This document shows positions 17,009 through 20,845 of a stretch of 64,000 nt of DNA, in pieces. The DNA is from Pimelobacter simplex (GTDB lineage Bacteria > Actinomycetota > Actinomycetes > Propionibacteriales > Nocardioidaceae). The stretch's first letter is position 1, and each line of letters opens with the position of its first letter. Location of the stretch: contig NZ_CP096276.1 of NCBI RefSeq assembly GCF_024662235.1, forward strand, positions 6,014,001 to 6,078,000, in the 5' to 3' direction. The notes under the pieces are model-generated. The model was not told the origin of the DNA. It saw only the letters and a program-made list of their open reading frames with translations, and did not search any database. The position numbers were made by a program, and so were the translations under genes.

Positions 17009-17049
17009 GGGCCCGACCTTACTGGGCGGGGCCGAGCGGGCGACGCTCC

Positions 17050-17067
17050 GGTTTCCCCGATGAACCC
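17050..17067 (+). repeat. 18-bp direct repeat, left copy
   Basis: GGTTTCCCCGATGAACCC here matches 19306-19323 at 16 of 18 positions in the same orientation. The pair brackets the unknown gene and its IS element, so the two copies might mark an acquired segment. Confidence 0.5.
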
Positions 17068-17255
17068 CCGCGCTCGCACTCCTCGTAGGTCTGAGCCCTA
17101 CCCCAACGAGGTCCCCACCTGCGGGTGCCCGAGGAGCGCTCGCCCTGCGGGCGTCACTTCGGGGCACGACTGCCGCGCGGTGAACGTGGAGATTCGCTGG
17201 TAGGAAGGGTCACGGGACCAGGTCGCTGCGAAAGAACTCAATACGCTGTGTCCCA

Positions 17256-17263
17256 TGCAGCCG
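17256..17263 (+). repeat. Left target-site duplication of the IS256-family element
   Basis: TGCAGCCG here recurs exactly at 18686-18693 on the other side of the element. Eight bases is the usual duplication for IS256-family transposition. The left copy starts on the T of an ATG (17255-17257). Confidence 0.85.
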
Positions 17264-18685
17264 GGTCAAGTCCGCTGGGGTGGTGTACGAGGTTGATCCC
17301 TCGGTTGGGCGTGTCGGTCAGGCTGTGAGGGCCTGGAGTTCGGGTTCGGTCACCTCCTCGACGACGCAGGTGTCGACGGCCTGGGCGCGGGCGAGGACGT
17401 CGAGTCCGAGGTAGCGGCGGCCTTCGGCCCACTCGTCGTGCTGCTCGGCCAGGACGGCGCCGACGAGCCGGATGATGCTGGCCCGGTCGGGAAAGATCCC
17501 GACCACGTCGGTTCGCCTGCGGATCTCGCGGTTGAGGCGCTCGTTGGGGTTGTTGGACCAGATCTGGCGCCAGATCTCCTTCGGGAACGCGGTGAAGGCG
17601 AGGATGTCGGCACGAGCGTCCTCCAGATGCTCGGCCACCTTGGGGAGCTTCTCGGCCAGGGCGTCGACGACCCGGTCGAACTGGGCGTGGACAGCGTCGG
17701 CGTCGGGCTGGTCGTAGATCGAGTGCAGCAGCGCCTTGACCCAGCCCCACGAGGACTTCGGCGTCGCCGACATCAGGTTCGCCGCGTAGTGGGTTCGGCA
17801 GCGCTGCCACGAGGCGCCGGGCAACGTGGCGCCGATCGCGGCCACCAGCCCGGCGTGGGCGTCGCTGGTGACGAGCTTGACCCCGGCCAGGCCGCGGGCG
17901 GTCAGATCCCTCCAGAAGGCCAGCCACCCGGCGCCGTCCTCGCTGCTGGTGACCTGCACGCCGAGGATCTCGCGGTGCCCGTCGGCGTTGACGCCGGTGG
18001 CGACCAGCACGTGGACCGGCACCACCCGGCCACCTTCGCGGACCTTGAGCACCAACGCGTCGGCGGCCACGAAGGTGAACGGCCCGGCCTCCTCCAGCCG
18101 TCGGGTGCGGAACTGCTCGACGTGCTCGTCGAGTTCCTTGGCCATCACCGAGACCTGGCTCTTGGACAGGCCGGTGATGCCGAGGGTCTGCACCAGCTTG
18201 TCCATCCGCCGCGTCGAGACGCCGAGCAGGTAACAGGTCGCGACCACACTGGTCAGTGCCCGCTCTGCTCGCTTGCGGCGCTCCAGCAGCCACTCGGGGT
18301 ACAGCGAACCGGTGCGCAGCTTGGGAACCGCGACGTCCAGAGTGCCGACGCGGGTGTCGAGGTCGCGGTGCCGGTAGCCGTTGCGGGAGTTGACGCGCTC
18401 CATGCTGCGTTCGCCGTAGCCGGCGCCGCACACCGCGTCGGCCTGCGCCGAGAGCAGCGCATTGACGAACGTGGTGAGCAGGTCCCGCATCAGATCAGGA
18501 CTGGCCTGGGACAGCTGCTCGTTCAGGAACTGTGCAGGGTCGATACTGGGTCCAGCGGTCATCGTCGTGGTCCTTCTTCGAGTCGGTTTTCGCAGATCAC
18601 TCGAAGGATCCACCCGGTGGCCGCGCCTACGTTGGAGGCACGCGCTCACTCAGGTCCGTCGTACACCACTCTGCTGGACTCCACT
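17264..18685 (-). mobile_element. Complete IS256-family insertion sequence, 1422 bp
   Basis: One transposase gene is flanked by imperfect 27-bp terminal inverted repeats (17264-17290 and 18659-18685; 19 of 27 match, with GTGGTGTACGA identical at the inner ends). The 8-bp direct duplication TGCAGCCG lies immediately outside. The intact ends, duplication and open transposase frame point to a recent and possibly active insertion. It splits the first codon of a gene that continues at 18686. Confidence 0.92.
17318..18562 (-). CDS. IS256-family (Mutator-type) DDE transposase
   Basis: A 414-residue transposase. GYRHRDLDTRVGTLDVAVPK is the family N-terminal block. VAADALVLKV holds the first catalytic Asp and VTSDAHAG the second. 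WSNNPNERLNREIRRRTDVV is the family signature around the catalytic Glu. The length and motifs are complete with no frameshift. The ATG at 18562 (MTAGPSIDP) is chosen over an upstream frame extension. It fills the IS between the inverted repeats. Confidence 0.95.
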   Translation of the reverse strand: MTAGPSIDPAQFLNEQLSQASPDLMRDLLTTFVNALLSAQADAVCGAGYGERSMERVNSRNGYRHRDLDTRVGTLDVAVPKLRTGSLYPEWLLERRKRAERALTSVVATCYLLGVSTRRMDKLVQTLGITGLSKSQVSVMAKELDEHVEQFRTRRLEEAGPFTFVAADALVLKVREGGRVVPVHVLVATGVNADGHREILGVQVTSSEDGAGWLAFWRDLTARGLAGVKLVTSDAHAGLVAAIGATLPGASWQRCRTHYAANLMSATPKSSWGWVKALLHSIYDQPDADAVHAQFDRVVDALAEKLPKVAEHLEDARADILAFTAFPKEIWRQIWSNNPNERLNREIRRRTDVVGIFPDRASIIRLVGAVLAEQHDEWAEGRRYLGLDVLARAQAVDTCVVEEVTEPELQALTA

Positions 18686-19104
18686 TGCAGCCGCTTGCTG
18701 AGGTGACCTTGACGCGCCCATGGCACTGGGGCGTCGCGGTGGTGGGAAACCCCGTCGCTGAGGTTCCGACCGACTTCGGCGGGCACCTCATCGCGGCTGG
18801 TCGAGACGTCATCGCACTGAGCGTCCGACACGCTCAGGACATCGAGGCCGAGAAGTTCGAGGGTGAATGGGCTACGGCGACGCTGTACGTGCGGTCGTTG
18901 GTGCAAGAAGAAGGCACGGACCGGCACATCCTGTGCGACACGATCGTCGCGACATCTGACGAGACCGTCGCTGTCGGAGACGCTGACGGCATGGTGGTGG
19001 TCCCTTCGCCGAGCCTCCGAACTCGCGTCATCGTGTCGACCGACGACGCCGATCCGACAGGGTTGGAGCGCGTCTGGGTCGACTTGGTTGCTGTCGACGA
19101 CTGA
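18685..19104 (+). CDS. Uncharacterised protein whose start codon was hit by the IS element
   Basis: Removing the IS and one target duplication restores an uninterrupted gene starting ATG CAG CCG CTT at 17255 and continuing from 18694 to 19104 (139 codons). After insertion the last element base plus the duplication gives TTG CAG CCG, so a TTG start at 18685 keeps the frame. The original promoter and leader are now 1.4 kb away. The protein (MQPLAEVTLTRPWHWG) is beta-rich and acidic; I recognise no family. Its codons end in G/C less consistently than those of its neighbours, suggesting transfer. It may be silenced or driven from the IS end. Confidence 0.7.
   Translation: MQPLAEVTLTRPWHWGVAVVGNPVAEVPTDFGGHLIAAGRDVIALSVRHAQDIEAEKFEGEWATATLYVRSLVQEEGTDRHILCDTIVATSDETVAVGDADGMVVVPSPSLRTRVIVSTDDADPTGLERVWVDLVAVDD
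18686..18693 (+). repeat. Right target-site duplication of the IS256-family element
   Basis: Exact copy of the left TGCAGCCG (17256-17263), directly after the right inverted repeat. Confidence 0.85.
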
Positions 19105-19305
19105 GGCTTGGGCTTCTGCCACGCGGTCGCTGTTGGGGCGCTGCGTGACGGCAAGGGTCGGGCCGGCGAAACAGGCCAGGGTGGCTCACTGCCGTGCGTC
19201 ACCTCTGGACGGTCGACTGCCGGAGCCCATCCTCCCGAGCGACGGCGCAACGGGTCGATCGCGGACGGTTGCGCCGAGCTTGCTGGTGGTCATGAGTGTT
19301 CGTCT

Positions 19306-19323
19306 GGTTTCTCCGATGAACCG
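19306..19323 (+). repeat. 18-bp direct repeat, right copy
   Basis: GGTTTCTCCGATGAACCG matches 17050-17067 with two differences. It lies 25 bp upstream of miaB, at the right edge of the segment that holds the IS and the unknown gene. Confidence 0.5.
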
Positions 19324-19348
19324 CCAGCCGCCGTACCCTTGAGCGGTC

Positions 19349-20845
19349 ATGAGCACTGCAGCCCAGCCCCGCACCTACGAGGTCCGCACCTACGGGTGCC
19401 AGATGAACGTGCACGACTCCGAGCGCCTCTCGGGCCTGCTCGAGGACGCCGGCTACGCCGCGGCCCCCGAGGGGGAGCAGGCGGACGTCGTCGTGTTCAA
19501 CACCTGCGCGGTGCGGGAGAACGCGGACAACCGCCTCTACGGCAACCTCGGGCACCTGGCGCCGATCAAGGCGAAGCGGCCCGGGATGCAGATCGCGGTC
19601 GGGGGCTGCATGGCGCAGAAGGACCGCGACACCGTGGTCAAGCGGGCGCCGTGGGTCGACGTGGTCTTCGGGACCCACAACATCGGCTCCCTGCCGGCGC
19701 TCCTCGACCGGGCGCGGGTGCAGGAGGAGGCGCAGGTCGAGATCCTCGAGTCGCTCGACGTGTTCCCGTCGACGCTGCCGACCAAGCGCGAGTCGGCGTA
19801 CGCCGCGTGGGTGTCGGTGAGCGTGGGGTGCAACAACACGTGCACGTTCTGCATCGTGCCGAGCCTGCGGGGCAAGGAGAAGGACCGGCGGCCGGGCGAG
19901 ATCCTGGCCGAGATCGAGGCGCTCGTCGCCGAGGGGGTCTCCGAGGTCACGCTGCTGGGCCAGAACGTCAACGCCTACGGCGTGGAGTTCGGTGACCGGC
20001 AGGCGTTCTCCAAGCTGCTGCGGGCCTGTGGCGCGATCGAGGGGCTGGAGCGGGTGCGGTTCACGAGCCCGCACCCGGCCGAGTTCACCGACGACGTCAT
20101 CGAGGCGATGGCCGAGACGCACAACGTGATGCCGAGCCTGCACATGCCGCTGCAGTCCGGCTCGTCCAAGGTCCTCAAGGACATGCGCCGGTCCTACCGC
20201 CAGGAGAAGTTCCTCGGCATCATCGACCGGGTCCGTGCCGCGCTTCCGGACGCGGCGATCACCACCGACATCATCGTCGGCTTCCCGGGCGAGACCGAGG
20301 AGGACTTCCAGGAGACCCTCAAGGTCGTTCGGGAGGCGCGGTTCTCGGGGGCGTTCACCTTCCAGTACTCCAAGCGCCCCGGTACGCCGGCCGCGACCCT
20401 GCCCGACCAGGTCGCCCAGGCCGACGTCACCGACCGCTACAACCGGCTCGTCGAGCTGGTCAACGAGATCACCTGGGACGAGAACAAGCGCATCGTCGGG
20501 CGCGAGCTCGAGCTCATGGTCTCCGAGGGCGAGGGGCGCAAGGACGCCGCCACCCACCGGCTGTCCGGGCGCGCGCCCGACAACCGGCTCGTGCACTTCG
20601 AGGCCGACTTCTCGCAGGTCGAGGGCGTGCCGCGGCCCGGCGACATGGTGACGGTCCAGGTGACCTATGCCGCGCCGCACCACCTGGTCGCCGACGGTCC
20701 GGTACGCGCGCTGCGTCGTACCCGCTCGGGCGACGCGTGGGAGCGCCGTACGACGGCGCCCGCGCCCGCCTCCGCCGGGGTCGGGCTGGGGATGCCGTCG
20801 ATCGGCGTCCCCGCGCCGCTGCCGGACGCCCCCGTCTGCGGCTGA
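19349..20845 (+). CDS. miaB: tRNA-2-methylthio-N6-dimethylallyladenosine synthase MiaB
   Basis: A 498-residue radical-SAM methylthiotransferase that adds the 2-methylthio group to i6A37 in tRNAs reading UNN codons. The N-terminal UPF0004 domain has the auxiliary-cluster cysteines in [17 protein letters not shown] and VGGCMAQ. The radical-SAM domain has [14 protein letters not shown] (CxxxCxxC) near residue 157. A C-terminal TRAM domain spans about 380-450. A Pro/Ala-rich tail of about 35 residues lies beyond TRAM. Its partner miaA is 2.2 kb downstream. Confidence 0.97.

Follow-up and report, generated by a model that had tools for sequence, protein, structure and literature searches.

The window, the whole 64,000-nucleotide stretch of DNA analysed here, contains an insertion sequence of 1422 bp at positions 17264–18685 that lies on the minus strand, as read directly from the sequence. 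Its transposase of 414 aa is encoded on the same strand (17318–18562). The transposase scored 483 bits against Pfam PF00872 (cutoff 21) and 330 bits against the NCBIfam IS256 model NF033543 (cutoff 150), and it matched PDB 6xg8 with an E value of 3.4e-34; it is an IS256-family, Mutator-type enzyme. The IS256 family is defined by terminal inverted repeats together with an 8-bp target duplication. Here the left repeat (17264–17290, plus strand) and the right repeat (18659–18685, minus strand) are identical at 19 of 27 positions, confirming the 27-bp imperfect repeats of the original prediction, and the element is bordered by a perfect duplication, TGCAGCCG, at 17256–17263 and 18686–18693 on the plus strand. 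Like other members of the family, the element passes both profile cutoffs, carries imperfect terminal repeats, generates 8-bp duplications and is present in many copies, and we found no difference in kind. In 57 other genomes, its best matches of near full length were 74–87% identical. By eye, an inverted repeat, CTTCGAGT/ACTCGAAG, was also seen at 18576–18606, just before the transposase start, where it could mask the transposase ribosome-binding site in read-through transcripts.

At least 21 copies of the 1422-bp element, including that of the window, are present in the three-contig, 6.26-Mb genome, and all are 100% identical. This count is a lower bound, with 40 of 699 first-look candidates scored. 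Of the copies found, the chromosome-sized contig holds 17, contig 2 three and contig 3 one. Perfect 8-bp duplications flank 20 of the 21, and the 20 other identical copies fix the element boundaries independently of the window. The anatomy, the duplications and the identity of the copies were observed directly, and 21 identical copies imply that the element would have transposed recently. The copy without a perfect duplication (L040, C1:219435–220856) has flanks that match at only 4 of 8 positions; it sits 61 bp from another copy in the opposite orientation, and a rearrangement between copies is possible. Two others, on contig 2 (L029, C2:77355–78777) and on the chromosome (L031, C1:1515831–1517253), have the same immediate flanks, so a larger IS-containing segment was probably copied between the 111-kb contig 2 and the chromosome. 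With these two counted once, there are 19 distinct duplicated sites, including that of the window. Contigs C1 and C3 also carry five near-full-length relatives of the element at 75% identity, plus shorter ones at 65–69%.

The element interrupts a gene whose coding sequence, 139 aa plus a stop codon, now lies to its right at 18685–19104 on the plus strand. This gene belongs to an undescribed, unnamed but conserved family of proteins of 139–141 aa that mostly begin with MQPLAE. A protein search returned at least 135 relatives, 120 of which were available for alignment. The window's start residue is shared by 84 of the 121 aligned proteins, its own included; of the other 37, 22 start upstream of this residue and 15 downstream. 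Because so many family proteins begin at the same residue, we conclude that the ATG at 17255–17257 was the true start of the gene. From the 121 proteins we chose 45 for spread (alignment A1). In this alignment the window protein lacks two residues (DW) of a conserved GDWDW stretch, at window residues 60–61 (frame 18721 onwards); protein P0002, which comes from a metagenomic contig and is 99% identical, lacks them as well, so the interrupted copy is not alone in this loss.

Direct reading and the shared family start together confirmed that the insertion falls exactly within the start codon, as had been predicted. The duplication TGCAGCCG begins on the T of the ATG and is found at both junctions, and the element therefore entered after the A. 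Its last base, T18685, and the TG that opens the right duplication now spell TTG, also as proposed. This TTG arose by coincidence, because the element happens to end in T and the duplication to begin with TG. The frame is open and continuous with TTG 18685 as far as 19104, in agreement with the earlier claim that the whole coding sequence was retained.

A TACGCT hexamer at 17242–17247 on the plus strand ends 7 bases before the old ATG, as the original prediction had noted. We compared it with the upstream sequences of the family. Merging identical upstreams reduced 20 rows to 14 distinct sequences; 12 of the 20 loci L085–L104 were omitted when the search motif gave no start, and L053, whose start is missing, was not used. 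A TANNNT motif ends 5–7 nt before the ATG or GTG start in 12 of the 14, the window's empty site included, the exceptions being N. gansuensis and N. acrostichi. Over 2000 rounds of single-base shuffling, the average was 0.34 hits and no round gave more than 4 of 14; the motif stands at that distance from 0.475% of random positions. A TANNNT box about 12 bp upstream is described in PMC3160421 as a mark of leaderless genes, which are said there to be frequent in Actinobacteria, and PMC3898074 reports this −10 motif, together with numerous leaderless genes, in M. tuberculosis. The interrupted gene resembles the leaderless genes of these accounts in the type of box, its position and the high-GC host; unlike in them, an IS has come between its promoter plus start codon and its coding sequence. 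From the conserved layout we infer that the gene was most likely leaderless and transcribed from its first base. Before the insertion, TACGCT would have started transcription on the A of the ATG, giving an mRNA that begins with its own start codon, and the element would sit one base after that transcription start. It had been proposed that the gene lost both its promoter and its leader. The first part holds, in that the promoter is cut off; with a conserved leaderless layout there was probably no leader to lose, and the intact ATG stays with the promoter on the left.

The left junction keeps the promoter joined to ATG CAG CCG, and the frame opened by this ATG runs 13 codons into the element (17255–17296). 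The left promoter would thus yield at most a 13-codon peptide and, judging from the orientation, a transcript antisense to the transposase gene. The right copy, TTG CAG CCG, has no −10 box at the leaderless distance. Nor is there a clear Shine-Dalgarno sequence before TTG 18685, where 78% of 3000 positions drawn at random from the window had an equal or stronger duplex energy, in a test that barely separates real starts here (64% for miaB and 41% for the transposase). The 139-aa frame would therefore be left behind a TTG with neither a clear Shine-Dalgarno sequence nor a positioned −10 box. On leaderless mRNA in E. coli, GUG, UUG and CUG are reported to be much less efficient than AUG, with GUG working better in some actinobacteria (PMC9031893). 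As the promoter and ATG stay on the left and the frame on the right lacks clear start signals, expression of the gene has most likely ceased or almost ceased, a reading drawn from this layout and not from decay, since the coding frame is undamaged. We therefore favor, with good though not complete confidence, the interpretation that a recently expanded IS256-family element inserted by ordinary 8-bp duplication into a leaderless gene, between the first and second bases of its start codon, and most likely abolished, or nearly abolished, the gene's expression. The original prediction had left two outcomes side by side, silencing of the gene or its transfer to the end of the IS; the layout points to the former, and the latter finds little support, as detailed below. 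It had also proposed a comparison with related strains. None of them was found to have the exact empty site; the comparison did recover uninterrupted family members and a near relative without the gene.

Another explanation, compatible with silencing, is that the gene was already a dispensable passenger, an orphan inhibitor without a partner, so that the insertion was neutral. We regard this as possible, although the odds are somewhat against it. The protein is predicted to adopt a ComJ-like fold, that of a nuclease inhibitor, and in a comparison of the predicted structure with the PDB the matches that stood out were ComJ (4mqd) and the crocagin biosynthetic protein J (6i86). ComJ is the NucA nuclease inhibitor of Bacillus subtilis; the window protein is actinobacterial and only 12% identical to it, and it is 8% identical to the crocagin protein. 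Imm-ComJ immunity proteins are described in PMC3482391. At the sequence level, the ComJ profile PF11033 had no match at E values up to 10 in four gene-carrying genomes, including that of the window, and searches of the protein against Pfam, NCBIfam, PHROGs and PADLOC revealed no known domain at E values up to 0.1. The 45 aligned members gave two weak DUF hits only (best E 0.021), and the family had no sequence match in the PDB at E values up to 1. A NucA-type nuclease, PF14040, was found in one of 14 genomes, which is not a gene carrier (G102). The lack of any match to PF14040 in the window's genome agrees with an orphan inhibitor, as do the lack of a second copy of the gene in that genome and the restriction of the gene to 10 of 215 genus genomes, the window's included and several of the matches partial. 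On the other hand, PF14040 is only one possible partner family, and the conserved family and open frame imply that selection would have acted until recently.

Matches also occur beyond the genus, in 11 of 391 genomes of an order-wide draw and in 4 of 394 of a class-wide draw, each including the window's genome. Twelve named loci carry the gene, among them those of N. gansuensis (71% identical), Ornithinicoccus halotolerans (64%), Janibacter melonis (63%) and Kribbella antiqua (42%). The gene had no match on phages or plasmids at E values up to 1e-5, and on viral contigs 12 stretches fitted a pattern but none was confirmed. Twenty scans of 19 neighboring ORFs in eight family loci, the ORFs being picked by an ad hoc codon-composition rule, gave varied domains (including DUF7878, DUF1877 and DUF1990) or none, and no common partner.

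In the window, the gene is probably a rare acquisition, with a damaged copy of the 5′ end of miaB on its left and miaB itself on its right. We compared 29 of 30 miaB loci, leaving out the window's own. In G107, which of 98 genus genomes is the closest at this locus and is not among the gene carriers, the upstream-gene block (89% identical) and the miaB block (94%) are only 44 bp apart, whereas the same blocks are 2271 bp apart in the window, or about 841 bp after subtraction of the element and one copy of the duplication. Direct repeats bracket this stretch (17047–17069 and 19303–19325, 87% identical; 17094–17138 and 19365–19409, 80%), and the core 17-mer GGTTTCYCCGATGAACC occurs only at these two places genome-wide with one mismatch allowed. 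In their left copies the repeats resemble the leader and 5′ end of miaB in a decayed form that lacks the ATG. Taken with the gene-free relative, the repeats indicate that acquisition of the gene probably went along with duplication of part of the miaB 5′ end. The arrangement of the repeats (17047–17138 and 19303–19409) suggests insertion of a cassette at that end with partial target duplication. A broader reading, which we put forward as speculative and rather unlikely in its entirety, is that the gene represents an undescribed actinobacterial family of leaderless, stand-alone nuclease inhibitors with a ComJ fold, serving as orphan immunity proteins and mobile as cassettes of one gene, in this case inserted at the miaB 5′ end, part of which was duplicated.

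It is considerably less probable that the element re-drives the gene, with an outward promoter, TACGTT, producing a leadered mRNA that is translated from TTG 18685 or from an internal TTG at 18709–18711. The frame is intact, and both signals are present on the plus strand. TACGTT (18628–18633) is the only outward TANNNT in 18486–18700 and ends 51 bases before TTG 18685; with a TANNNT density of 0.42 per kb on that window strand, its presence is somewhat unexpected. The internal TTG follows a Shine-Dalgarno-like GAGGTGA stretch stronger than that at 96% of random positions. However, both are weak candidates for rescue. A start at 18709 would drop eight residues, including the invariant P3 and L4, and with them half of strand 1 (residues 5–12). 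A strict sigma70 scan, which has almost no power, found no promoter where 0.1 was expected by chance. Nine IS relatives were considered for comparison of the right end, three being omitted from the alignment as their match stopped short of it; TACGTT was present in only one of the six aligned relatives, the closest. A conserved outward promoter at the right end is thus not supported, and there may be a small chance of weak expression via 18628–18633 or 18709.

A preference of the element for start codons or leaderless promoters is highly improbable: the junction splits an ATG or GTG at 3 of 21 copies, the window's included, and at a fourth (L028) a putative GTG start with a 104-codon frame opens the duplication, but the frames that follow the other two split codons are only 6 and 20 codons long, and the 19 distinct sites have no positional consensus over their eight positions, on which grounds we rejected it. 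A frame open past 132 codons follows the split codon only in the window. By rough arithmetic that assumes about 6000 genes, two inner junctions per start codon and 6.26 Mb, a random insertion would fall within a start codon in about 0.2% of cases, or about 4% over 19 sites. A start-codon hit is unusual for one site and forms no pattern; as the 20 copies with perfect duplications show no start-codon preference, the spot was hit by chance. A full-text literature search, judged from titles and abstract openings, returned no obviously identical precedent for an insertion sequence within a start codon, which is not proof of absence.

We conclude that the event is an ordinary case of inactivation by an IS, made instructive by the probably leaderless nature of the gene. 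It is a clear example from nature of an insertion that, falling after the first base, parts the promoter and start codon of such a gene from its coding sequence. As the remaining frame still reads as a TTG-starting gene, annotation could call the gene present even though it is probably off. The case also points to an unnamed protein family with a predicted ComJ-like fold.
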